Source of the DNA: Afipia sp.
Lineage (GTDB): Bacteria; Pseudomonadota; Alphaproteobacteria; Rhizobiales; Xanthobacteraceae
Direction of reading: 5' to 3'
NCBI GenBank assembly: GCA_017474385.1
Contig: JAFVHU010000054.1
Span: 1-39,711, forward strand
Length of the DNA: 39,711 nucleotides
Part shown: positions 334 through 20,557 of the stretch, piece after piece
Layout: each line of letters begins with the position of its first letter
Position numbering within the stretch: position 1 is the first letter of the stretch
Notes under the pieces: model-generated
The model's input: only the letters and a program-made list of their open reading frames with translations
Database searches by the model: none
Told to the model about the DNA's origin: nothing
Position numbers and translations under genes: made by a program

Positions 334-515
334 CGCTGCACCTCCCTGCGCAGAATGTCGGCCGTCTCGGAGTTGAGACGGAATAGCTGGTCGCGGTTGA
401 GCGCGAACGAGAGTGCCTCGTCGCCCGGTTTCCCGACCTCAAGCAGTGTCAACACAACCAACCCGCGCTCGGGGTTGGTCAGGTAGGCAAGATGGGCTTG
501 GCGGGGCTCGTTCAT
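330..515 (-). CDS. 61-aa hypothetical protein, early operon
   Basis: Small soluble protein with no family I recognise. It is coupled on both sides: its ATG overlaps the stop of the DnaA-domain gene (ATGA at 515-512), and its TGA overlaps the GTG of the VRR-NUC gene. That tight packing in the replication operon is the main support for it being real. It could be a replication accessory protein, but nothing in the sequence proves this. Confidence 0.75.
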   Translation of the reverse strand: MNEPRQAHLAYLTNPERGLVVLTLLEVGKPGDEALSFALNRDQLFRLNSETADILRREVQR

Positions 516-976
516 GCGGTGATACCGGACTTGATCTCGTCCAACCTGTTTCGGAGCGCTTCGGACTGCAGCAGCTCGCGAACGGTTTCGCGGGCATGCA
601 AAATCGTGGTGTGGTCTCGGTTTAGATGTTTGCCGATCGCCGGCAGAGACATCGGCGTTAGTTCGAGGAACAGGGCGACAGCGAAGTACCGTGCGTTCGT
701 GAAATGAGGCCGGCGATTGTCTGCCAGCAATTCCGGAACGGAGATGCAGAACTCCATGGCGATGGCGTTCAGAATGCGCTTAGACATCGGCACGTAGGCA
801 GAAATCCGCGAAGCCGTGGCATACTCGCGATAGCGCCGACGCTCCTCTGAAACTGAGATGACCGCCAAAGGCTTCGTTCTCTCCTGCTCGCGCCGTATCT
901 GGCGCAGAGCGGCTTCAGCGAAGCGCGCATCGCGCGCCCGCTTTGCTGCGATGAACTTAGCCTGGGATGGAGTCAT
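512..976 (-). CDS. DnaA domain IV-like (box-binding) protein
   Basis: 154 aa. Residues 1-35 are basic and helical; residues about 90-135 match the DnaA C-terminal DNA-binding domain, including the signature RDHTTILHA at 120-128 after a helix-turn-helix (SLPAIGKHLNR). The ATPase domain of DnaA is absent, so this is a free-standing DnaA-box reader. Its place between an HTH gene and the nuclease/helicase suggests it recruits replication proteins to the phage origin, or reads or titrates host DnaA boxes. The start is 18 nt after the upstream stop, with GGAAGGG ahead of the ATG. Domain assignment is firm from the signature; the role is inferred. Confidence 0.87.
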   Translation of the reverse strand: MTPSQAKFIAAKRARDARFAEAALRQIRREQERTKPLAVISVSEERRRYREYATASRISAYVPMSKRILNAIAMEFCISVPELLADNRRPHFTNARYFAVALFLELTPMSLPAIGKHLNRDHTTILHARETVRELLQSEALRNRLDEIKSGITA

Positions 977-1456: not shown

Positions 1457-1663
1457 TCAACCGCAGAATTTGATGATCCCGATGACAGAGAAGAGAATGG
1501 CGATAGGCAGACCGATTGCAGCGGCAGAAAACCAGAGAGCAGCAAGCTCTCGGTCTCGATCAATTGAACCTGGATAAGAAAAGCCAATCGGAACGCGAGC
1601 GCGTATCTGCTCAGCGTGCGCGCGGTCGGACGGATGCCCCGCTGTCTGGCCGCGCGTTGTCAT
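1457..1663 (-). CDS. 68-aa single-pass membrane protein
   Basis: The N-terminal half is hydrophilic and basic; residues about 41-65 form one strong transmembrane helix (alternating AAIGLPIAILFSVIGII), with a very short C-terminal tail. The start overlaps the cro stop (ATGA at 1663-1660), so it is translationally coupled to cro and expressed as soon as the Cro promoter opens. No family recognised. Early single-pass membrane proteins in phages sometimes affect superinfection or the host envelope; that is only an inference from position. Confidence 0.72.
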   Translation of the reverse strand: MTTRGQTAGHPSDRAHAEQIRARVPIGFSYPGSIDRDRELAALWFSAAAIGLPIAILFSVIGIIKFCG

Positions 1664-1884
1664 GCGGTGGCCTCGGCGGTGGCGGGGATTTCGAAGAACC
1701 AGCTATCGTTCCATTCACCGATCTGCTGAGCGGCAGTCCGGATGCGGGTCATCTCCTCGCGGCCGGGCTCCAGCTCGCCAGATTCCCAGCGCGACACAGT
1801 GGCTTGCGTCGCTCCTGCGACCTCGCCAAACGCCATCTGCGTGGTTTTGAAGATGTTCCGCCGGATATGCTCGATCGGTCTCAT
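1660..1884 (-). CDS. Cro-like HTH repressor
   Basis: 74 aa with an HTH_3/XRE-type helix-turn-helix at residues about 16-38 (MAFGEVAGATQATVSRWESG). It diverges from the CI-like repressor across a palindromic operator region, the classic cro position. The ATG at 1884 lies only a few bases after the predicted transcription start, with no Shine-Dalgarno sequence, so the mRNA would be leaderless or nearly so. It heads the leftward early operon. Confidence 0.85.
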   Translation of the reverse strand: MRPIEHIRRNIFKTTQMAFGEVAGATQATVSRWESGELEPGREEMTRIRTAAQQIGEWNDSWFFEIPATAEATA

Positions 1885-1886
1885 GT

Positions 1887-1901
1887 GCGCATACTATGCG
1901 C
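1887..1901. promoter_or_regulatory. Operator palindrome GCGCATA-C-TATGCGC
   Basis: Perfect 7-1-7 inverted repeat immediately before the cro start codon, sharing its right half with the neighbouring operator. It places a repressor or Cro dimer over the -10 and start region of the cro promoter. Confidence 0.7.
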
Positions 1902-1920
1902 GAACGCATAATCAGGTCAA
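1893..1920 (-). promoter_or_regulatory. PR-like promoter for cro and the replication arm
   Basis: On the minus strand: -35 TTGACC (1920-1915), a 16-bp spacer that contains operator site 1, and a -10-like CATAGT (1898-1893). Predicted initiation is around 1886, at the cro ATG. Its spacing and sequence are almost repeated by the rightward promoter at 4126-4153. Confidence 0.7.
1895..1910. promoter_or_regulatory. Operator site 1 (TATGCG-CGAA-CGCATA)
   Basis: Perfect 6-4-6 inverted repeat between the -35 and -10 of the cro promoter. The same TATGCG-N4-CGCATA design recurs at 1927, 4103 and 4136, which marks it as the recognition site of the CI-like and/or Cro-like protein. Confidence 0.82.
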
Positions 1921-1926
1921 GGAAAT

Positions 1927-1942
1927 TATGCGTTTGCGCATT
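1927..1942. promoter_or_regulatory. Operator site 2 (TATGCG-TTTG-CGCATT)
   Basis: 6-4-6 inverted repeat with one mismatch, centred 32 bp from site 1. An overlapping perfect repeat GCGCAT-TTG-ATGCGC covers 1936-1950, so this side has three half-sites. It lies between the cro -35 and a weak TTATAC -10-like element (1952-1957) for the repressor, as expected for a repressor-maintenance control site. Confidence 0.78.
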
Positions 1943-1976
1943 TGATGCGCGTTATACGGCTGTGCATAGTTTTGGC

Positions 1977-2615
1977 ATGGGACATAACGTACCGAAGCTA
2001 CTGGAAAAAATGATGGAGGCCTTGCCGGGAACGCAAACCCAGCTTGCCAGTCGCCTGACACTGCCCGGGAAAAGCGGGATAAAAATTACGCAGCCTCAGA
2101 TTTCACGATGGATCAAAGGGCAGGAGCCGGAGCGCCCCGCCTACGATCGCATCGTCCAAGTCGCGGTTCAGCTACATGTGCTGTCTGACGTTCGATCGGA
2201 GGATGTGGCGAGCGATCTGCCCTCCCCTCCGGCCAAAAGGAAGGTCAAGGTCAAGGGCTACGTCGGCGCCGGCGCCGAAGCTCATTATTACGCACTAGCC
2301 GATGAGGATTTTGAGGAAGTGGAAGCGCCTCTGGGGGCGACGGATCAAACGATCGCCGTCGAAATCAAGGGAACGAGCTTTGGCCCGCTGATGGAGTCCT
2401 GGCTCGTCTTCTACGACGATATCCACTCTCCGATTACTGAGGCCCTCATCGGCAAGGTCTGCGTCGTCGGACTTTCAGATGACCGCATCCTGATCAAGAA
2501 GATCGTTCGAAACCGGAACGGTGGTTTCGATCTGCATTCAAACTCCAATGAAGATCCATTGCTTGACGTAGATATTGAGTGGGCAGCCAAGGTCACAGAC
2601 ATGAGGCCAAGATAG
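1977..2615 (+). CDS. CI-like repressor with S24 (LexA-type) C-terminal domain
   Basis: 212 aa from the ATG at 1977. Residues about 5-65 are an HTH domain (TQPQISRWIKGQEP near 38-51). Residues about 90-205 are an S24/LexA-like domain with a candidate Ala-Gly cleavage bond in GYVGAGAE (about 98-99), nucleophile Ser134 in KGTSFGP, and the general-base lysine in ILIKK (174/175). So it can plausibly self-cleave with RecA during the SOS response. In-frame upstream codons to 1896 run through the operators and are rejected. No Shine-Dalgarno precedes 1977, and the leader from the TTATAC element would be very short. It faces cro and heads an operon that continues at 2630. Confidence 0.88.
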   Translation: MGHNVPKLLEKMMEALPGTQTQLASRLTLPGKSGIKITQPQISRWIKGQEPERPAYDRIVQVAVQLHVLSDVRSEDVASDLPSPPAKRKVKVKGYVGAGAEAHYYALADEDFEEVEAPLGATDQTIAVEIKGTSFGPLMESWLVFYDDIHSPITEALIGKVCVVGLSDDRILIKKIVRNRNGGFDLHSNSNEDPLLDVDIEWAAKVTDMRPR

Positions 2616-2629
2616 TCTGGAGAAGAATT

Positions 2630-2881
2630 ATGGGGATCAAAGCAGTTGTTGCGGCCACTATCGCACTTCTCATCATCGGCTCGGCCGCTGCCGAAGCCCG
2701 TGGCGGCGGTCGATCATCAGGCGGCAGCCATTCAATTCGCGGTCATTTCCGGTCTAGCGGCACTTATGTGGCGCCAAGTGGCGCCCGCAATCCGAACAGA
2801 ACGCAGTTCGACAACTACGGGACGCGCGGAAACTACAACCCCTACTCAGGGCGGATCGGCACGAAGACGCCGAGGTACTAA
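2630..2881 (+). CDS. Small exported Gly/Arg-rich protein
   Basis: 83 aa. Residues 1-21 are a signal peptide (Lys, then a long Ala/Ile/Leu core ending AAAEA). The mature part has the GTYV-x-P-SG-x-R and NYGTRGNYNPYSGR pattern seen in many small uncharacterised proteobacterial exported proteins. GGAG at 2619 precedes the ATG. It starts 14 nt after the repressor stop with no terminator between, so it should be expressed in the lysogen. Function unknown. Its position corresponds to lambda rexAB, which makes superinfection exclusion or lysogen fitness reasonable guesses. Confidence 0.8.
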   Translation: MGIKAVVAATIALLIIGSAAAEARGGGRSSGGSHSIRGHFRSSGTYVAPSGARNPNRTQFDNYGTRGNYNPYSGRIGTKTPRY

Positions 2882-3198
2882 TGAAGCGCGCAGTAGTTTT
2901 TGCAGTATGTGTGGGCTGGATTAGTTCAGCCGCAGCGGCCTTTGATGATGGCAACGATCTCTTGCAGATTTGCACCAACGAACGTGAATTCTGTCTTGGG
3001 CTAACTTCTGGATATTATGACATGATGAGGACGATGGGCGTGACCTGCCCACGGGCCTCAAATGTATCAAGAGGTCAAGTTCGAGATGTCATAGTTAAGT
3101 ACCTCAACGACAACCCAGCGAAGCGCAATCAATCTGCATCATTTTTGGCGGCCACTGCGCTTACACAAGGCTTTGGTTGCAAGAAGCCGGGCACATGA
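2881..3198 (+). CDS. Rap1a/Tai-family exported protein
   Basis: 105 aa. Signal peptide at 1-20 (ending SAAAA), then FDDGNDLLQIC, CLG, GQVRDVIVKYLNDNP and a final GFGC, the order typical of the Rap1a/Tai family. Four cysteines of the mature part (31, 38, 56, 100) can form two disulfides. Founding members are periplasmic immunity proteins against Serratia type VI amidase effectors; the phage copies have no established role. The start overlaps the upstream stop (TAATG at 2879-2883). Family call is from the motif order; function in the phage is inference. Confidence 0.82.
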   Translation: MKRAVVFAVCVGWISSAAAAFDDGNDLLQICTNEREFCLGLTSGYYDMMRTMGVTCPRASNVSRGQVRDVIVKYLNDNPAKRNQSASFLAATALTQGFGCKKPGT

Positions 3199-3278
3199 CC
3201 TCCCCACCCTACCGCTTCCTGCTGGGACTGCTGGTCGTGGCGCTGGCCGCGCTGATCTTCGTGATACTGAGGTGGTGA
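3195..3278 (+). CDS. 27-aa membrane peptide
   Basis: ATG at 3195 overlaps the stop of the Rap1a-like gene (ATGA), and the TGA at 3276-3278 is one base before the next start. After six residues the peptide is a single transmembrane helix rich in Leu/Val/Ala, ending ILRW. The junctions on both sides support it as part of the repressor operon. No family can be named at this length. Confidence 0.6.
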   Translation: MTSPPYRFLLGLLVVALAALIFVILRW

Positions 3279-3279
3279 C

Positions 3280-3504
3280 ATGTCCAACATCGAGCCGCTC
3301 GCCCGCGAAGTTGTAGAGCGCGTCTGTCGACGTACCGGCATGCCGGAAGCTGAGATTCCTGCATGGGTCGATAGGCACTGGGAAGCTGCGGCGGCCGAGA
3401 TCGAGGCAGGCAACTGCGACGAGAACGGCGAGATCAAGCCGGGCTCAGACTGGCGGAAGGGTCTGGAAGCGTATCGCGACCGGTTGGCGGCGAAGCGCAA
3501 ATGA
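3280..3504 (+). CDS. 74-aa hypothetical protein
   Basis: Soluble, acidic-basic, mostly helical protein with a GAGGTGG ribosome binding site. It is the last gene of the apparent repressor operon. No recognised domain; the ENGEIKPGSDWRKG segment suggests a loop between helices. Likely cytoplasmic. Confidence 0.75.
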   Translation: MSNIEPLAREVVERVCRRTGMPEAEIPAWVDRHWEAAAAEIEAGNCDENGEIKPGSDWRKGLEAYRDRLAAKRK

Positions 3505-3794
3505 CTGCCTACCTACCGGGCGGCCGAAATTCCAACATTTATCACTAGCTGTCTTCAGAAAAACTCAAGGAACCAATTGCGCTGACTCAGGAAATCAAGC
3601 TGATTCAGTACGTTGATTCGTCTTGAAATGAAGAACCGCCCAAGGCTGCAACCGAGGGCGGTTTAGATCGAGGCGGAGTGTGCCAAACCCGTTGTCGTCG
3701 CACACCCTGGAGAAAGACCCCGACCGAGGCACACAGCCTTATTCGGACTCACCTGTCAAGGCGGCAACAGTCTAACCAGTCACAAGGAAAGATC
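3505..3794. other. 290-bp non-coding stretch within the immunity region
   Basis: No gene is evident. The AT-richer first half (3530-3630) is followed by two hairpins: 3634-3663 (see terminator) and GTGTGC/GCACAC at 3678-3705. The stretch separates the repressor operon from the gene at 3795, and could hold a promoter or a small RNA; I cannot pick out clear -35/-10 elements. Confidence 0.45.
3634..3663 (+). terminator. Putative terminator of the repressor operon
   Basis: Inverted repeat AACCGCCC/GGGCGGTT, 8 bp, with a 14-nt loop and a short TTT run after it. The weak U tract leaves it moderate. It would end the transcript that starts with the repressor. Confidence 0.5.
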
Positions 3795-3995
3795 ATGACT
3801 GGAACTGCAAAGCCTAGCGGCAGCGGCCGCGTACCTTCGTACAAGATCAAGCCTACGGACGTTCCGTACATCAAGAAGCGCATCCGCGAGGGTGAGTTCT
3901 TGAACCGGATCGCCGCAGACTACGATGTGAACCCCGGACGGATCTCTGAGATCAAGAAGGGTCGCAAGTACGGTGGTATCCCGGCGGCACACTAG
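3795..3995 (+). CDS. 66-aa HTH-like protein
   Basis: Start ATG at 3795 with AAGGAAAG ahead. The C-terminal half (LNRIAADYDVNPGRISEIKKG) has the pattern of a helix-turn-helix in small phage DNA-binding proteins with an A-x-x-Y/F-x-V-N-x-G-R-I motif. It lies alone between two hairpins inside the immunity region, just before the second operator/promoter. It may be an additional regulator of the switch; the target is unknown. Confidence 0.72.
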   Translation: MTGTAKPSGSGRVPSYKIKPTDVPYIKKRIREGEFLNRIAADYDVNPGRISEIKKGRKYGGIPAAH

Positions 3996-4006
3996 GCGAT
4001 AACGGG

Positions 4007-4028
4007 GAGGCGCAGAAAGTTGCGCCTC
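4007..4028 (+). terminator. Putative terminator after the 66-aa HTH gene
   Basis: Perfect 8-bp stem GAGGCGCA/TGCGCCTC with a 6-nt loop, 12 bp after the stop codon, followed by a pyrimidine run (TTCCCTTCCC) and not a pure U tract. It would insulate the immunity region from the rightward promoter. Confidence 0.5.
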
Positions 4029-4102
4029 TTCCCTTCCCTACGCCGCCACACTCACCTCTGGCGGCACGCGGCCATAGGGTCGCACCCAGCCTCGCAACAA
4101 AT

Positions 4103-4118
4103 TATACGTTCGCGCATT
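4103..4118. promoter_or_regulatory. Operator site 3 (TATACG-TTCG-CGCATT)
   Basis: Same 6-4-6 design as the cro-region operators, with two changed positions. It is centred 33 bp upstream of site 4, the same spacing as between sites 1 and 2 (32 bp). Confidence 0.68.
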
Positions 4119-4125
4119 TTTTATG

Positions 4126-4153
4126 TTGACTTGTATATGCGTTCACGTATATT
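4126..4153 (+). promoter_or_regulatory. PL-like rightward early promoter
   Basis: -35 TTGACT (4126-4131), 16-bp spacer, -10 TATATT (4148-4153), initiation expected near 4160. The spacer and -10 contain operator site 4. Read in its own direction, it matches the cro promoter from TTGAC through TATGCGTTC and beyond, so the two promoters look duplicated. It diverges away from the immunity region, as lambda PL does relative to PR. Confidence 0.75.
4136..4151. promoter_or_regulatory. Operator site 4 (TATGCG-TTCA-CGTATA)
   Basis: 6-4-6 inverted repeat with one changed position, overlapping the -10 of the rightward promoter, so that bound repressor would block RNA polymerase. Confidence 0.75.
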
Positions 4154-4187
4154 TACCCCCATCGGATCAACCACGGGGATGGCAGTC

Positions 4188-4895
4188 ATGTCAGGGGCTT
4201 CGGTTATCAACGAAGGCATCGCGCGCAAGGTTCTTCAGGTTGTCGATGTCGGGCTGGTCAATGGAGTTGGAAATCCGATCCCCGGCCAGATGTGTGTGGA
4301 GGCGGCGGTTTGCTACGCGCTTGGTCTCCCCCACGGTGATGATCCGGGTTGTGTTTCCCCTGCTCTGCGCCGCCTCAAAATCCGATTGAACGACTCTCGC
4401 TGGTCTTCAACCAAGGCCCGCGCCAACGGCCTTCGGCGGCTGGCGGTTGCCCAACTCGGCAGCAAGGGCGAGTTGGATGAAAAGGAATTCGTGCGCCTGC
4501 TGGTTGACTACGCGCTTCGCGTCTCGACACCTCAGGCCCTTCGCTCGGCAGCTTCGGTCCACAAAGACCCGGTTCATCAAAAAGCGCTCCGCGATGCGGC
4601 CAATCGCTGCGAAGTAGAAGCCTCGCGCGGAGCCGCTTTGGCGGCGCGAAAGACTGCTGCTGCTTATGCTGCTGATGCTGCTTATGCTGCTGCTGCTGCT
4701 GCTTATGCTGCTGCTGCTTATGCTGCTGCTGCTGATGATGCTGATGCTGCTGATGCTGCTTATGCTGCTCGGACGCGGGCGCGGGCGCGGGCGCGAGACA
4801 AGGCTTTGGCGGACTACGCCGAAGCGGTCGTTCAAATCCTTATTAAGCTCAACGCACCAGGCTGTCAGTGGCTTGTGCTGACTGAGGCCGCGTGA
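4188..4895 (+). CDS. Hypothetical protein with Ala-Tyr/Asp repeat
   Basis: 235 aa from ATG 4188, chosen because GGGG (4175-4178) is 9 nt upstream; ATG 4179 is in frame but has no such spacing. The N-terminal 120 residues form a conserved-looking domain (NPIPGQMCVEAAVCYALG, HGDDPGCVSPALR, RLKIRLNDSRW) that I associate with uncharacterised bacterial and phage proteins. It is followed by a low-complexity stretch of Ala with Tyr and Asp encoded by GCT/TAT/GAT repeats (4654-4770), then an Arg-Ala run from GCGGGC repeats. First gene behind the PL-like promoter. Function unknown. Confidence 0.8.
   Translation: MSGASVINEGIARKVLQVVDVGLVNGVGNPIPGQMCVEAAVCYALGLPHGDDPGCVSPALRRLKIRLNDSRWSSTKARANGLRRLAVAQLGSKGELDEKEFVRLLVDYALRVSTPQALRSAASVHKDPVHQKALRDAANRCEVEASRGAALAARKTAAAYAADAAYAAAAAAYAAAAYAAAADDADAADAAYAARTRARARARDKALADYAEAVVQILIKLNAPGCQWLVLTEAA
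4654..4795 (+). repeat. Coding microsatellite: GCT/TAT/GAT then GCGGGC
   Basis: About 117 bp of near-pure trinucleotides in which every Ala codon is GCT, unlike the GCC/GCG preference elsewhere, followed by three GCGGGC-like hexamers. Unit length is a multiple of three, so length change keeps the frame. Typical of slipped-strand expansion. Confidence 0.9.
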
Positions 4896-5296
4896 TGGCC
4901 CGCCAGACCCTCCGATACGAGTTCGAAGAACTCCCGGCCTTCATCGATCAAGGCTTTGAGTGCGGCCAGCTCGATGGCATCGCAGAGATTTCCTACGCAA
5001 GCGACGGTGAATGGTTCATCCGCGACATCGGGCTCGTTGGTGCGCGCAAGAACAAGCACACGCTTGAGCAACGCCTAGCGGCAATCCAGAGCGGCGTTCA
5101 CCTCCCGATCTATGACCGAAAGCTTATGTGGCTCGATAGCGGCACGCCAATCTTCTCGATGGTCTACGACGTTCTTGACGGTGCTTGGAATGACAAGCTG
5201 TCCGAAGCCGTTGCCGAGCAGATTGCAAAGGACCGCGAGTCCGCTGCCGACGATCATGCTGATTATATCCGCGAGCGTCGGAGGGAGCCCGCATGA
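4895..5296 (+). CDS. 133-aa hypothetical protein
   Basis: ATG 4895 overlaps the previous stop (TGATG). Mixed alpha/beta composition, several Trp and acidic residues, and a charged C-terminus (YIRERRREPA). No signal peptide or membrane segment. The tight coupling supports it as the second gene of the rightward operon; no family recognised. Confidence 0.72.
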   Translation: MARQTLRYEFEELPAFIDQGFECGQLDGIAEISYASDGEWFIRDIGLVGARKNKHTLEQRLAAIQSGVHLPIYDRKLMWLDSGTPIFSMVYDVLDGAWNDKLSEAVAEQIAKDRESAADDHADYIRERRREPA

Positions 5297-5496
5297 TGAC
5301 CTCCCCCTATCTCGTTGACGACATCGGGCCGACTTTCGGGAAGCTCAAGGACGTTTGCGATGTCCTTCTGGCTGCAAACCCAGTGCGCCTAACTGGCGAC
5401 GGCATGACGATAGCGGCAGCAATCATAAGTCTTGAGCTTGTTCTCAATCGCATCAACGCGGTTCACGCGCGGCGCGAATTGCAGGCGGCTGAGTAA
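5293..5496 (+). CDS. 67-aa hypothetical protein
   Basis: Starts at ATG 5293 (a second ATG follows directly at 5296) and overlaps the preceding stop. Short, mostly helical, no recognised motif. Supported by coupling and codon use only. Confidence 0.62.
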   Translation: MMTSPYLVDDIGPTFGKLKDVCDVLLAANPVRLTGDGMTIAAAIISLELVLNRINAVHARRELQAAE

Positions 5497-5545
5497 CGCG
5501 GTGACACCGCAACACCAGGCCAGTGAACGAAACAGGGGCAACACG

Positions 5546-5938
5546 ATGGACGCAGAACTGAAACGGAAGTGGGTCGAGGCGCTGCGGAGTGGCGAGTACA
5601 AGCAGGGCGATAGCAAATTGCACGATCCAAAATCGGACGCCTTTTGCTGCCTTGGCGTGCTGTGCAAGGTAGCTGGCGCTGACTTTGGGCCATACGCGGG
5701 GCTCGATGCTAATGACGAGTATGGCGATTATGACCATGTGCCAGTGCTCGGCGGTGAAATCATCTCTGGCAGAGATGATGAAGAGTTAAGTTCAGAATTC
5801 GCCTATCGCATCGGCCTGTCTGAGCACCAAGCCGCCTTGATCCGCATGAATGACGGCTTCGGCGTGGTTGGTCGAGAGGGCTATCGCGCCCCCCAATCCT
5901 TCCTCGAGATCGCCGACTACATCGAAGCCAATCTCTAG
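5546..5938 (+). CDS. 130-aa conserved phage-type hypothetical protein
   Basis: Begins MDAELKRKWVEALRSGEYKQ and then has CCLGVLC near residues 33-39, a pattern I recognise from a widespread uncharacterised phage family (KWVxALRSGxYxQG...FCCLGVLC). The C-terminal half, with LSEHQAALIRMNDG and FLEIADYIEANL, also fits it. Soluble. The role is unknown in all members I know of. The ATG at 5546 follows a weak AACAGGGG about 10 nt upstream. Confidence 0.82.
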   Translation: MDAELKRKWVEALRSGEYKQGDSKLHDPKSDAFCCLGVLCKVAGADFGPYAGLDANDEYGDYDHVPVLGGEIISGRDDEELSSEFAYRIGLSEHQAALIRMNDGFGVVGREGYRAPQSFLEIADYIEANL

Positions 5939-5994
5939 CTCCGCACTCGTGCTGAGAGACAGCGCCCGTCCCTATTTTTCAAGGAGATTTCGAA

Positions 5995-6291
5995 ATGCTC
6001 TACGATCCGAAGTGGGAAAAGAACTCCGAGACCAAGACCGATCCGTTCTCGCTGGAGAGCCTGATTGCGTGGCTGGAGAAGCAGCCAGCGGACAAGGCAT
6101 ACAACTTCTGCGACAAGCAGAATTGCCTGATCGCGCAATACCTCCAGGCCGCAGGCGTTGAGCAGTACGAACTGTCGTCAGCCGAAGTGGCGAGCCTCGG
6201 GTGGATGCAGATCGTGAATCCGAAAGCGTATGTGCCGACCTTCGGCGCCGCTCTCGAACGCGCACGCGCCGCCCTCGCTGATCGCGCCTGA
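5995..6291 (+). CDS. 98-aa hypothetical protein
   Basis: Strong AAGGAG 9 nt before the ATG. The segment WLEKQPADKAYNFCDKQNC, followed by LIAQYLQA, resembles small phage/alphaproteobacterial proteins of unknown role that carry a W-L-x-x-Q-P-x-x-x-x-Y-x-F-x-D/N-x-x-x-C motif. Soluble, helical. Confidence 0.75.
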   Translation: MLYDPKWEKNSETKTDPFSLESLIAWLEKQPADKAYNFCDKQNCLIAQYLQAAGVEQYELSSAEVASLGWMQIVNPKAYVPTFGAALERARAALADRA

Positions 6292-6329
6292 TTTCCCGTT
6301 CCTCCTAATCACAGCAAGGGTCCGCGATC

Positions 6330-6506
6330 ATGCGATCAATTCTATTTCGTTCCGCGATGATGGCAGCCGCTGTGGCGCATATGGCTGGTCCGGCCACAGA
6401 GAAAGCCGCCTATCCGAAGCCGGGTCAGACCAAACTCAAGCGCCTCACCCAACGGTCACCCGACCGGTCGAAGAAGCAGTATCTGCTAAAGGGCGTGCGG
6501 CCATGA
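6330..6506 (+). CDS. 58-aa basic hypothetical protein
   Basis: ATG 6330 with AAGGG about 9 nt upstream; the stop TGA (6504-6506) overlaps the next ATG. The N-terminal 22 residues are hydrophobic/Ala-Met rich and could be a weak signal or membrane anchor; the rest is strongly basic (KLKRLTQRSPDRSKKQYLLK). It may be an anchored nucleic-acid- or membrane-interacting peptide. No family known. Confidence 0.6.
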   Translation: MRSILFRSAMMAAAVAHMAGPATEKAAYPKPGQTKLKRLTQRSPDRSKKQYLLKGVRP

Positions 6507-8273: not shown

Positions 8274-8470
8274 GCGAGCAACTAACATACGGCGAACGAT
8301 TGCTTCTCGCTATTCTTGCAAGAGAATCGCAGGACGATTTCGATACCGTGGCAGATCGCGTTCTTGTCGGTCGCGGGCTCGCGGAGCGCTTCGGCGTCGG
8401 CCAGATCCGCATCACCGACGCCGGCCGCGCCGCCCTTGCGGTGTCAGAACGTGAGGCCGACCGTGGCTGA
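8270..8470 (+). CDS. 66-aa hypothetical protein (GTG start)
   Basis: GTG at 8270 overlaps the HNH stop (GTGA). The final third (RITDAGRAALA) is the end of a winged-helix-like fold common in small phage proteins (x-I-T-x-x-G-R-x-A-L/V-x). Possibly a small DNA-binding accessory protein; unproven. Confidence 0.68.
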   Translation: MSEQLTYGERLLLAILARESQDDFDTVADRVLVGRGLAERFGVGQIRITDAGRAALAVSEREADRG

Positions 8471-9233
8471 GAACAGCAAGATCGAGTGGACGACGCACAC
8501 GTTCAACCCATGGATCGGCTGCACGAAGGTGTCGCCGGCATGCGACCACTGCTACGCGGAGGCCATGATGGACACCCGCTATGGGCGCGTCCGTTGGGGT
8601 GCCGGCGAGGACAGGCAGCGCACATCAGCGTCTAACTGGGCGCTTCCTCGTCGTTGGAACAAAGCGGCGCCGATGGAAGGTATCCGCCCATTTGTCTTTT
8701 GCGCCTCGCTGGCCGACGTTTTCGATAACGAGGTTGACCCGGCGTGGCGCCGCGATCTGTTCACACTGATCGGACAGACGCCCAATTTGGTTTGGCTACT
8801 TCTCACGAAGCGGATCGGCAACGTCTTGAAGATGACCGATCCGGCAGCCTGCAACCCTCTCCTGCCCAGCAACGTTGGTATCGGTGCGACCCTAGCCAAT
8901 CAGGAAGAGTATGACCGCGACCGCATGAAACTGGCCGATGTCGCCCGTGTGTGTCAGCCACTATTCACCTTCGCCAGCATCGAGCCGATGCTTGGCCCGG
9001 TCATTCTCGACAAGAACGCGCCTGACTGGATCATCTGCGGCGGCGAGAGCGGACGCGGCGCACGCGAGATGGATCCGCAGTGGGCTCGCGATCTACGTGA
9101 CGGGGCCCGTCGTTTCGGCCGCGCTTTCTTCATGAAGCAGATGACCGGCAAGAAGCCGATTCCTGACGACCTGCTGGTGCGGCAATTCCCCACCCCGCGA
9201 GTGTCCTCCCCCGACCGATCAGGTGACGCATGA
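8463..9233 (+). CDS. DUF5131 / phage Gp37-Gp68 family protein
   Basis: 256 aa from GTG 8463, overlapping the previous stop by 8 bp. N-terminus KIEWTTHTFNPWIGCTKVSP, then ACDHCYAE, gives Cys20, Cys27 and Cys30 (C-x6-C-x2-C), followed by RFVFCASLADVFD-like and FASIEPMLGP, WIICGGESG motifs characteristic of this family. The cysteine set suggests an iron-sulfur cluster and a radical-SAM-like barrel. Many mycobacteriophages and proteobacterial phages carry it, and its reaction is not established. In this window it sits next to a DNA methyltransferase, which may hint at DNA or nucleotide modification. Confidence 0.92.
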   Translation: MAENSKIEWTTHTFNPWIGCTKVSPACDHCYAEAMMDTRYGRVRWGAGEDRQRTSASNWALPRRWNKAAPMEGIRPFVFCASLADVFDNEVDPAWRRDLFTLIGQTPNLVWLLLTKRIGNVLKMTDPAACNPLLPSNVGIGATLANQEEYDRDRMKLADVARVCQPLFTFASIEPMLGPVILDKNAPDWIICGGESGRGAREMDPQWARDLRDGARRFGRAFFMKQMTGKKPIPDDLLVRQFPTPRVSSPDRSGDA

Positions 9234-9781: not shown

Positions 9782-10191
9782 CGAAGGCGGACCATGTCCC
9801 GGAGCATGTGCTTGCCGCGTTCGAGAGCGAGCCGCACCTATCGATGCCCAAGCTGGCGAAGGTCATGAAAATTGACCGCGCGACGCTGGGGAAGCATCGC
9901 GAAGCCGGGAACCTGCCGGTGCATATCAAGGGGACCGGGCTTGAGCGCCGGCATTACGTCTGTACCCTTGGTGACGTAGCCGAATTCTACCGCCGCACGG
10001 GTGAAGCATGTCAGTCTTCAGAGTCAAAAACTCGCCCTATTACCAGTTCGATTTCCAGATCAAAGGTCATCGGTTTTACGGTTCGACCGAAGAACGGAAT
10101 GAACGTAAAGCTAAGGAAGTCGAGACCGCGAAGCGCGCCGAAGCCAAGCGCATCGTTGACGACGCCGTCGCAACCGGACGGAGGCCTCTAA
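9778..10191 (+). CDS. Excisionase-like HTH protein overlapping integrase
   Basis: 137 aa from GTG 9778 (GTGA overlap with the methyltransferase stop). Residues about 8-75 form an HTH/MerR-like module (MPKLAKVMKIDRATLGKHRE...GLERRHYVCTLGDVAEFYRR), the type found just upstream of phage integrases as Xis or directionality factors. The last 61 codons run out of phase through the first 184 bp of the integrase gene; this tail is basic and low in hydrophobics. Similar overlapping tails occur in relatives as I remember them, but the tail may be incidental. Confidence 0.7.
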   Translation: MTKADHVPEHVLAAFESEPHLSMPKLAKVMKIDRATLGKHREAGNLPVHIKGTGLERRHYVCTLGDVAEFYRRTGEACQSSESKTRPITSSISRSKVIGFTVRPKNGMNVKLRKSRPRSAPKPSASLTTPSQPDGGL

Positions 10192-11177
10192 CCGTGGAGG
10201 TCGCATGCGACAACTGGTGGAGCGAGGTTGGCCAGCACGGCAGTGACCCCGACCTGAAGCGCGCTCTCGACTGGCTCAAGGGCCAGATCGGCCCGCGCGT
10301 GGCCCTGCACGATATCACTGACAGCATCGTGACAGCCGCCGTTGAGGCCCGCCGCAAGCATGTAAAGCGCTCCGGCCGCGACGCCAACGGCAAGCAGCTT
10401 TTCAAGCCGCTTAGCAATCGCACGGTCAACAAGACCGTGACCTCCCTCCTCAGCCGTGTATTCACGCGGGCCAAAGAAAACTGGAACGCCACGATCCTGC
10501 GCGAGCCGGACTGGCGGAAGCACTGGCTTCCTGAGCGCAAGCGCCCAATCCGTGAGATCACCGCAGCTGAGGAAAAGCGGATCGACGCGGTCGAGAGCAA
10601 GGACTTCGCGGAGCTTCGCGAGTTCGCTGCGCTGATGGGTCTGCGGCGCAAGGAACTGCTGCTGAGGTGGCCCCAGGTCGATTTCGACATGGCCGTCATT
10701 CGGATCATCGGCAAGGGCGGGAAGCCGGCCACCATTCCCCTGCCCCGTCGAGCCTACGAGATCCTCTGGGGGCTGCGCGGCAACCACGAAACTTCCGTGT
10801 TCACGTTCGTGGCCGAGCGCACCCGAAAGTGCCCCAAGACCGAGGTCAAATTCGTCAAGGGTGATCGGTACCCAATGACCTACTTCGGGATTGGGACGAA
10901 CCGGCGCCGCAAATGGGCTAAGGCGGGCGTAGATGCGCGTTTGCACGATCTGCGCCACACGACGGGCATGCGCACTCTGCGCACCACGGGCAACCTGAAG
11001 CTCGTTCAGAAGCTCTTGCGGCACACGGACATCAAGACCACCTCCCAGTTCTATACCGACGCCGATCTGGACGATATCCGGGCCGGTATGGAGGCGACCG
11101 CCAAGAGCACGGAATCCCAGAAAAAGTCCCAGACAGAAAATTTGGATGCCGCTAACAACTTGAAGGACAAGGCATAA
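10008..11177 (+). CDS. int: Tyrosine-family site-specific integrase
   Basis: 389 aa. N-terminus SVFRVKNSPYYQFDF is a typical arm-binding opening; core-binding helices cover about 60-160. The catalytic set is complete: Arg213 (GLRRKE), Lys236 (GKGGK), His313-x-x-Arg316 (LHDLRH), His339 (LLRHTD) and Tyr349 (FYTDAD). It integrates the circular phage genome at attB and, with Xis, excises it. attP follows 20 bp after the stop and consists of a tRNA 3' end. GGGTGAAGC precedes the ATG. Confidence 0.96.
   Translation: MSVFRVKNSPYYQFDFQIKGHRFYGSTEERNERKAKEVETAKRAEAKRIVDDAVATGRRPLTVEVACDNWWSEVGQHGSDPDLKRALDWLKGQIGPRVALHDITDSIVTAAVEARRKHVKRSGRDANGKQLFKPLSNRTVNKTVTSLLSRVFTRAKENWNATILREPDWRKHWLPERKRPIREITAAEEKRIDAVESKDFAELREFAALMGLRRKELLLRWPQVDFDMAVIRIIGKGGKPATIPLPRRAYEILWGLRGNHETSVFTFVAERTRKCPKTEVKFVKGDRYPMTYFGIGTNRRRKWAKAGVDARLHDLRHTTGMRTLRTTGNLKLVQKLLRHTDIKTTSQFYTDADLDDIRAGMEATAKSTESQKKSQTENLDAANNLKDKA
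11111..11134 (+). repeat. attP left arm-type sites (TCCCAGA x2)
   Basis: AATCCCAGA (11113-11121) and AAGTCCCAGAC (11124-11134), inside the 3' end of int. The same two words occur in the same orientation at 11367-11390 on the other side of the tRNA-derived core. They are probable binding sites for the integrase N-terminal domain. Confidence 0.72.
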
Positions 11178-19297: not shown

Positions 19298-20557
19298 ATG
19301 AAAAAAGCCGCCCGGACGGGGCGGCTGGTGGGTTTACGGATTCGAGGTTGGCCGCTAGGATTCCAACTTGAAGTTGAAAAGTTGGGGATTGAAATTAAGA
19401 GCGCGCACGAGCTTTATCGCAACGCAGCACGCCTTCTAATCTGGTCGTTTTTCCTGCTCATATTTAGCAGGGTGCTGGAATTCTTTGCCTTTAGTTATGA
19501 ATCGCCTGTGAGACCCGTCGCGGTCTATGCGGCGATCGCTGGCGGCTTTCTTTTGCTTTCCGTAAAGCGGATTCAAATCGATCCGTTCTTGTGTCTGCTT
19601 GGCATTATCGTCGCGATTGGCTTTTGGCAGTATCGCGGCGAAGGTGTTGTTGAGTTTCCTTCCGAATTGCTATCGGACGTGCAGCCGAGACCGAGCCACA
19701 TAAGTTATGCAGTCTGGCCACTATTGAACCTAGTTGCAGCAGTCGGTTTGTTCTCCTTGGTGAACGAGGAAGACTTCCAAAAAACTGTTCGCGATGCGGC
19801 CTTCGCAACACTCTGTCTGTTGATGGCCTCAATGATCGTAGATTTCTTCTGGCCTCACATCTTTCACGACATCCCGAACGGGCGCGCGTCTGGACTTGCG
19901 AAGAACCCGAATACTGCGGCGATGATGGCTGCCACGCTGGCGGCTCTGATGCTTCCTCGAACTGGTGAAAGGCTTCCTTACCAAACGTGGATATCGATCG
20001 GGATTGCCGTTCTCGCGGCGATCATGAGTGGGTCAAGATCGGGGCAGTTAGCTGTTGGTGTTGTCGCGGCGACAGGGTTATGGACGCACTGTCAGTATCA
20101 CCCATCGCGTCGCGCCATTATTGGTTGGGGTGCAGTACTCTGCGGCCTTTGTATCGCGATCGTGTATTTCCAAATGGTCCGGATCGACTCATCGAACCTT
20201 CGACTGCACGCGGCCGGGATATTCTTGGATGCTGCGCTTGGTAATCCATCGGGCTTTGGAACAGGTGCCACCAACGACTACGTGACGGGACCACACAACA
20301 CATTCCTGAAGCTGATGGTGGAATCTGGTGTGGTATCGGCGGTGCTAATGCTCCTTCTGATGGGATATATCAGCTACTCCGCATATTCGTCGCGCAGCCC
20401 CCGTTCCGTAGCAGTTGTCTCGGTCGCATGGATTGCTGTGCTGTTCTCGCATACTGCGCTTGTAGAACCACTAGCTATGGCGGCCGTAGCTATTACAGCC
20501 GTTAAAGGAGTCGCACTCGTCAGTTTACGTCGAGATGAGATCTCTGCGAATCCCTGA
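19298..20557 (+). CDS. O-antigen polymerase/ligase-like (Wzy-like) membrane protein
   Basis: Up to 419 aa with about ten transmembrane segments and a periplasmic loop; the C-terminal part carries the Wzy/WaaL-type pattern ASGLAKNPNTAAMMAATLAAL, SGSRSGQLAVG and a PHNTFLKLMVESG motif whose His is conserved in the family. Such phage genes change host O-antigen linkage and block superinfection. Start is uncertain: ATG 19298 lies on the terminator hairpin; GTG 19328 (GGGGCGG upstream) or TTG 19382 are likelier. It is the only plus-strand gene inside the late region, and its AT-richer codon use suggests separate acquisition (a moron). Confidence 0.85.
   Translation: MKKAARTGRLVGLRIRGWPLGFQLEVEKLGIEIKSAHELYRNAARLLIWSFFLLIFSRVLEFFAFSYESPVRPVAVYAAIAGGFLLLSVKRIQIDPFLCLLGIIVAIGFWQYRGEGVVEFPSELLSDVQPRPSHISYAVWPLLNLVAAVGLFSLVNEEDFQKTVRDAAFATLCLLMASMIVDFFWPHIFHDIPNGRASGLAKNPNTAAMMAATLAALMLPRTGERLPYQTWISIGIAVLAAIMSGSRSGQLAVGVVAATGLWTHCQYHPSRRAIIGWGAVLCGLCIAIVYFQMVRIDSSNLRLHAAGIFLDAALGNPSGFGTGATNDYVTGPHNTFLKLMVESGVVSAVLMLLLMGYISYSAYSSRSPRSVAVVSVAWIAVLFSHTALVEPLAMAAVAITAVKGVALVSLRRDEISANP
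19301..19325 (-). terminator. Terminator ahead of the lysis cassette
   Basis: On the minus strand: stem GCCGCCC/GGGCGGC with a 5-nt loop, followed by TTTTTT. It ends 14 bp before the 44-aa gene, so lysis genes would need antitermination or readthrough. Confidence 0.8.

Follow-up and report, generated by a model that had tools for sequence, protein, structure and literature searches.

The Afipia sp. contig JAFVHU010000054.1, analysed here over its whole length of 39,711 bases (the window; the source assembly is incomplete, 84% complete), carries two divergent genes for helix-turn-helix (HTH) proteins, cro on the minus strand and cI on the plus strand. The 92-bp gap between them contains three copies of an inverted repeat, at 1895, 1927 and 1953, and two further copies lie beyond the repressor gene at 4103 and 4136. 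Between cI and this distal cluster stand four small open reading frames (ORFs), one of them Rap1a-like, and two hairpins (Table 1). Very probably this part of the contig is a phage immunity region, lambda-like in its working and drawn in mirror image, from a temperate phage whose head genes are P22-like. It belongs to the type known from lambda, P22 and Rhizobium phage 16-3, with an operator sequence, a spacing and a 3 + 2 layout of its own. As in the lambdoid phages, the repressor and cro genes diverge with repeated operators in between, and, as judged by sequence, a second cluster of the same operator covers an outward promoter beyond the repressor. The three operators per cluster of lambda and P22 are not matched, there being three at OR and two at OL.

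A sequence-only reading of this DNA had placed four TATGCG-type operators at 1895, 1927, 4103 and 4136, and a motif scan recovered all of these positions as well as their paired spacing of 32 bp (1895/1927) and 33 bp (4103/4136). Only the 1895 site is a perfect TATGCGN4CGCATA; those at 1927, 4103 and 4136 carry one, two and one mismatches, respectively. A fifth dyad, which that reading had not named, occupies 1953-1968 with two mismatches, 26 bp from the 1927 site, and brings the total to three operators on the cI–cro side and two on the distal side. Dyads with at most two mismatches numbered eight in the whole window, whereas 400 shuffles gave 1.5 on average and never more than 6; five of the eight fall inside 1895-4151. 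At the same cut-off the window held two dyad pairs spaced 28-37 bp, a configuration seen in none of the 400 shuffles. Enrichment was not clear at up to three mismatches (23 dyads in the whole window versus 17.6 expected; 8 of 100 shuffles reach 23), and a motif count over the genome at up to one mismatch (14 places versus 6 for the reversed pattern) was uninformative alone.

Each cluster covers a promoter-like sequence pointing outward. TTGACC-N16-CATAGT before cro and TTGACT-N16-TATATT on the distal side are both present, and the string TTGAC-x-TG-xx-TATGCGTTC that the sequence-only reading had given as common to them is correct. Both are built alike, with TTGAC, five bases and then the operator, which starts 4 bp past the -35 hexamer, covers the remaining spacer and runs into part of the -10. 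Across 1700-4300, a consensus scan returned four promoter-like sites (shuffle mean 1.4, sd 1.2), including both outward promoters; the remaining two were the cro promoter again, with an 18-base spacer, and a leftward site over the 4103 operator. The latter, TCAACA-N17-TATAAT (10/12; 4101-4129, minus strand), overlaps the OL cluster and points to the cargo genes and cI. The common string might indicate that the two modules arose by recent duplication of one operator-promoter unit, and the region had been described as an apparently duplicated module. Duplication was not demonstrated, and we regard such an origin as improbable: by eye, the arms show no similarity beyond operators and promoter hexamers, and the same order of elements recurs on both arms in phages with other operator variants, as expected from shared constraint alone.

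Table 1. Positions of genes, operators and promoter-like sequences in the window
Feature	Position	Strand	Remarks
DnaA C-terminal-domain-like protein, left arm downstream of cro	512..976	-	PF08299 E 1.7e-15
cro, 74-aa HTH protein, first left (PR-like) arm gene	1660..1884	-	recognition helix TQATVSRW
PR-like promoter TTGACC-N16-CATAGT	1893..1920	-	predicted start ~1886, ~2 nt before cro ATG
OR1 TATGCGCGAACGCATA	1895..1910		motif scan
OR2 TATGCGTTTGCGCATT	1927..1942		motif scan
Weak PRM-like TTGATG-N17-CATAGT for cI	1942..1970	+	predicted start at or next to cI ATG, leaderless
OR3 TATACGGCTGTGCATA	1953..1968		overlaps PRM-like -10; weight-matrix score 15.5, background 99th percentile 4.1
cI repressor, 212 aa, HTH (TQPQISRW) + S24/LexA-type C-terminal domain	1977..2615	+	
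Small secreted-looking protein (phrog_29674)	2630..2881	+	slot taken by rexAB in lambda
Rap1a-immunity-like protein, cargo slot	2881..3198	+	PF18602 E 5.7e-14, phrog_3870
Small ORF, cargo slot	3280..3504	+	no family match
Hairpin after cargo genes, possible terminator	3633..3664	+	z -4.5; 1/200 shuffles equally stable; unlisted by terminator scan
66-aa weakly HTH-like ORF	3795..3995	+	phrog_517 E 0.0013
Hairpin just upstream of OL cluster	4004..4031	+	z -2.7; 2/200 shuffles equally stable; unlisted by terminator scan; possibly ends transcription coming from the repressor side
OL2 TATACGTTCGCGCATT	4103..4118		motif scan and side-by-side comparison with relatives
PL-like promoter TTGACT-N16-TATATT	4126..4153	+	predicted start ~4160
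OL1 TATGCGTTCACGTATA	4136..4151		within spacer and -10 of PL-like promoter
First right (PL-like) arm gene	4179..4895 (start 4179 or 4188)	+	conserved N-terminal domain; 47 viral relatives
Integrase, right arm	10008..11177	+	PF00589 E 6.1e-18

Domain matches and a structural model indicate that the repressor combines an HTH domain with a LexA/S24 fold carrying self-cleavage residues, and cleavage is predicted. CI matched Peptidase_S24 at E 2.6e-4, just below the Pfam cut-off, and phrog_4 at E 2.1e-11; Cro matched HTH_3 (E 9.5e-4, under the Pfam cut-off) and phrog_8 (E 1.8e-4). Ala98-Gly99, Ser134 and Lys174 are present in CI, and the Ala-Gly pair, the Ser and the Lys are nearly invariant in the alignment; we take them to be the self-cleavage residues, their roles being assigned from LexA and lambda CI. 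An AlphaFold2 model of CI was built from 22 sequences (mean predicted local distance difference test score, pLDDT, 89.8; predicted template-modelling score, pTM, 0.60). Its top three Foldseek matches were lambda repressor C-terminal structures (E 6.6e-7, 3.4e-6 and 5.8e-6), at a template-modelling score (TM-score) of 0.42-0.45 by query length; next came a lambda-186 hybrid, the full-length lambda repressor and LexA. A profile search with CI gave HTH proteins as its best matches and reached lambda repressor 3bdn (E 6e-4) and LexA (E 0.006). The recognition helices of the window's CI and Cro share Q-x-x-(V/I)-S-R-W. Compared with aligned relatives, CI has about eight extra residues directly before its recognition helix (residues ~28-38).

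The same paired operators recur among relatives. A scan of viral contigs with Cro, in which one search pattern included the QATVSRW helix, yielded 64 loci; a distal pair was defined as two dyads spaced 28-37 bp and located 300-4,200 bp from cro, and 40 permuted dyads served as control. This motif scan for paired sites, which the sequence-only reading had proposed, found a distal pair, 0.7-3.0 kb from cro, in 17 of the 64 loci at up to two mismatches (permuted mean 0.05, max 1) and in 26 of the 64 at up to three (permuted mean 0.65, max 5). At the stricter cut-off, 31 of the 64 loci had a site within 130 bp of cro (permuted mean 0.5), 16 had a proximal pair, and a proximal site together with a distal pair occurred in 16 (permuted mean 0 in both cases). 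A downstream stretch of equal length held a distal pair in none of the 64 loci. About six loci had less than 4.2 kb upstream, an approximate count with default starts for a few short loci. Microcystis phage Mwe-Yong1 matched both Cro and CI, yet showed no convincing two-arm dyad.

Twenty-four of these loci were aligned with the window to give 25 rows, which hold 20 different OR1 and OL1 combinations. L105 and L138, with distal matches judged off-register or due to chance, were left out, both being counted in the 26 of 64; L090 and L092, with distal pairs 24-25 bp apart, were also left out and are uncounted among the loci with distal pairs. The best OR1 site stood at -24 to -28 from cro in all 25 rows (searched -34 to -19), and both arms followed the order operator, TTG -35-like sequence, operator. 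The window's arrangement of operator, TTG, operator and then gene holds for most distal pairs, whose spacing is 30 to 35 in the aligned relatives. The promoter geometry is not identical among relatives, -35 cores other than TTGAC being TTGC, TTGAT or TTGT. Across the 25 rows, 6-10 bases separate the end of the expected -10 from the cro ATG, and a leaderless cro is therefore suggested as a family trait. With a leave-one-out weight matrix, 13 of 25 rows, including the window, had an OR3-type site (-73 to -105) scoring above the 1% background, and a third site beyond OL2 was found in 4 of 25 at 1% background and 9 of 25 at 5%.

Operators within one phage agree more closely than those of different phages. 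OR1–OL1 agreement was 14.25 of 16 positions versus 12.51 with permuted partners (0 of 10,000), OR1–OL2 agreement 12.4 versus 11.19 (0 of 10,000) and OR2–OL2 agreement 10.0 versus 9.37 (189 of 10,000). We treat this co-variation as support and not as an independent test because the rows are related and were chosen by similarity to one motif. OL1 base 4 is C in all nine rows with the CI helix VNRW or VHRW, and in none of the 16 with VSRW, ISRW or VTRW (Fisher p 5e-7). These data bear on the alternative that the distal sites are read only by Cro or a host regulator, with CI controlling the cI–cro region alone. The Cro helix QATVSRW, the same in 25 of 25 rows although the search pattern contained it, would suit a Cro-only site; with that helix constant, operator base 4 nevertheless tracks the CI helix residue. 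Paired sites flank promoter-like sequence on both arms and loci found through the CI domain share an operator across both arms, so that we consider a distal cluster outside the control of CI highly improbable.

The C-terminal domain of the window's CI was found joined to other N-terminal domains. In a blind two-arm test of 19 CI-domain loci and the window, a dyad repeated near cI was sought together with a spaced pair of it downstream, the input being the known cI–cro gap for the window and a 370-base stretch for the other loci. From one list of relatives, 13 of the 14 best non-own matches were taken, G182, on a 3.9-kb contig, being left out. At the strict score of at least 21, 10 of the 20 loci, window included, passed, compared with 4 of 380 swapped pairings; the layout recurs in these CI relatives with unlike operators. 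Below it, L006 and Ruegeria phage 45A6 passed at 19, and L159, L164 and L165 at 17-18, a score also reached by swapped pairs. Among the yardsticks, P22 was found (22), lambda was found weakly (17) and 16-3 was missed. Mesorhizobium phage vB_MseS-P1 (L155) has shared TTCCCC..GGGGAA sites, recognized by eye only. Four relatives found through the first right-arm gene (L039, L040, L044 and L058) had matching dyads on both arms among the matches listed; with no null, they serve as illustrations. Five of seven scanned ORFs beside these dyads matched transcription-regulator families, and the minus-strand ORFs of L044 and L040 had no match to such a family. In L039, four AAGC-N3-GCTT sites lie within ~165 bp (407-572) between a cro and the right-arm gene, and no repressor ORF was noticed between these two genes.

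The logic OL/PL-cI-PR/OR that had been proposed for the region is thus supported by the comparison with relatives, by the CI fold and in part by the arm content. From it we infer CI binding, the transcription starts, cooperativity, autoregulation, induction and any loop. CI would be made from a weak, probably leaderless PRM and, by analogy, would bind OR1/OR2 and OL1/OL2 as paired dimers that shut both outward promoters. PR would drive cro, DnaA_C and presumably the replication and head genes, and PL the accessory early genes and the integrase. With OR3 over the PRM -10, Cro or excess CI could switch cI off. Both arms would be released together once CI is lost, probably when RecA stimulates it to cleave itself at Ala98-Gly99. 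Five loci (L100, L101, L104, L106 and L114) combine the same operators and two-arm layout with a short CI ORF (114-132 aa), and inspection by eye showed no S24 sequence in this ORF; for this reason, these phages are possibly not SOS-inducible, or the frame is broken.

In lambda the two clusters are joined by looping, and a CI octamer might likewise connect OR and OL over 2.24 kb here and be required for cI autoregulation. The OR1–OL1 centre distance of 2,241 bp is near lambda's 2,407 bp, and the CI model matches the lambda C-terminal domain octamer entry 1kca (E 7.9e-4). Against a loop of this type, the Cro-family distal pairs of aligned relatives lie anywhere from about 0.7 to 3.4 kb from cro and the L044 clusters ~0.3 kb apart, the five two-arm loci with short CI ORFs show no S24 sequence, and OL3, which pairs with OR3 in the lambda loop according to the accessible part of PMC5880393, is absent in the window. 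As no OR–OL distance is conserved, we hold looping to be conceivable but doubtful.

Control of both arms by one repressor, with or without a loop, invites comparison with characterized systems. As in lambda, cI and cro diverge with three operators between them, a second cluster lies beyond cI and cargo genes (rexAB in lambda), CI is of LexA type, and OR1 and OL1 are 2.2 kb apart (2.4 kb in lambda). Unlike lambda, the window has two OL sites instead of three and different operators (lambda OL1 and OR1 were tested; best 6 mismatches in 17), and its CI shows weak similarity in the C-terminal domain only (BLAST E 0.002). Rhizobium phage 16-3, like the window from an alphaproteobacterial phage background, has one repressor gene between two operator pairs (OL1/OL2 and OR1/OR2), a 2 + 2 version of the window's 3 + 2 plan; the portions available of PMC12429752 and PMC3694467 describe outward PL and PR promoters, with int and xis on the PL side. 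The 16-3 operators are nevertheless of the ACAA..TTG type, all four matching 1800-4300 with 3 to 5 mismatches at best, and the C repressor has no significant similarity to CI (E 0.094), so that neither the window's operators nor its CI are recognizably of the 16-3 type; moreover, the 16-3 operators are 17 and 26 bp apart and no cargo genes lie between. Salmonella phage P22 immC (c2, OL1-3, OR1-3) shares the two-arm plan, and the window has P22-like portal and coat genes, but P22 uses TTAAG..CTTAA operators in clusters less than 1 kb apart, with c2 alone between them. Mesorhizobium phage vB_MseS-P1 (47%) and Ruegeria phage 45A6 (38%) are relatives in the CI C-terminal domain that share dyads on both arms, by eye in the former and by script in the latter; their operators, TTCCCC..GGGGAA and CGACAC..GTGTCG respectively, differ from those of the window, and the features listed for these stretches include no operators. 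A DNA-level search of 1500-6500 against named phages returned one short match, to a Bradyrhizobium phage, in the right arm and outside the immunity region. Together with a right-arm homologue in Bradyrhizobium, this match suggests a host of rhizobia type.

Several observations weigh against reading the region as a two-arm switch. No third OL site above the 1% background was found in the window beyond OL2 with the leave-one-out weight matrix, and the PRM-like sequence is weak and was missed by the consensus scan of 1700-4300. The operator spacing of 26-33 bp exceeds that of lambda (20-24 bp), and lambda pairing geometry therefore cannot be assumed. No distal pair was present at up to three mismatches in 38 of the 64 Cro-family loci, some of which are distant or use other operators. 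Of the 25 rows, 17 show the TTGAC core at OL, 6 show it at OR and 6 on both arms, and its rarity at OR makes PR look the weaker of the two promoters in many relatives. The nine rows with Asn or His come from closely related loci, with five distinct site pairs, and base 4 has exceptions in the L108 OR1, which has G, and in the OR2-region site of L127 (VSRW), which has C. Regardless of score, 15 of 20 loci passed the blind test but so did 63 of 380 swapped pairings, and L154, L155, L161, L166 and L169 failed, leaving 5 of 20 without a two-arm dyad. Finally, a tblastn search of the fetched loci, most of which are short, gave no match to the integrase, helicase, portal or coat of the window.

The two-arm OL/OR plan itself is textbook, being shared by lambda, P22 and 16-3. 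Among the top-ranked open-licence papers of the literature searches (the first 3-15 of each), with PMC12429752, PMC10460002, PMC3694467 and PMC5880393 consulted as passages, no description of the window's operator was apparent from titles, opening abstract lines or passages. A 2025 study of phiLM21-like Sinorhizobium prophages (PMC12429752) reports that none of their operators is identical to a lambda or 16-3 operator and suggests that the operators there are different or have changed. A broader proposal, which we see as evenly balanced, is that temperate phages of Alphaproteobacteria commonly carry the two-arm switch, with operators of about a dozen unlike sequences, that both clusters co-match the repressor, and that Ser versus Asn/His in its helix sets base 4. 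The dozen classes are our own grouping, six from the strict blind-test score and the rest from weaker comparisons; clusters in these phages are roughly 0.1 to 3.3 kb apart. If the proposal holds, the sites at two distant places would be replaced or re-tuned at once when the immunity type changes, probably through exchange of the whole cro-cI-OL block, because the clusters of each phage match each other and the local repressor. The layout observed here yields candidate operators for other alphaproteobacterial phages by geometry alone and predicts immunity groups. It provides a natural series for testing how specificity shifts jointly in a repressor and its two operator clusters far apart, and its wider interest is that distant sites stay matched while their sequence varies from phage to phage.

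Gene content beyond the two clusters agrees in part with this plan. The integrase lies in the right arm, as in the PL arm of lambdoid phages, and an integrase is annotated on the right-arm side of Mesorhizobium phage vB_MseS-P1. On the left, the D5_N/DUF5906 protein and the P22-like portal, scaffold and coat (the scaffold match just below cut-off) share cro's strand but lie at the far contig end, and no exact terminal repeat of 20-399 bases was found on the contig. As those replication and head genes lie beyond the contig end, their continuity with cro in one unit is presumed. In the left-arm protein at 512-976, a DnaA C-terminal domain was detected but no ATPase part; it perhaps binds DnaA boxes. 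In the cargo slot, the Rap1a-immunity-like protein had no PADLOC match at E 0.01. Right-arm homologues occur in Bradyrhizobium, Devosia and two other records. The first right-arm protein has a C-terminal tail of low complexity, rich in Ala, Tyr and Asp and encoded by triplet repeats rich in GCT (4655-4800), and similar tails are seen in L039, L040 and L044. Further along the right arm, a DUF5131 protein (8463-9233) matches the PADLOC candidate models PDC-M41B and PDC-M30B; six of the fetched loci contain DUF5131 matches, which lie on the right-arm side in five (L100, L101, L115, L127 and L155). An O-antigen-ligase-like (Wzy_C) protein at 19298-20557, just under the Pfam cut-off, may take part in surface conversion.

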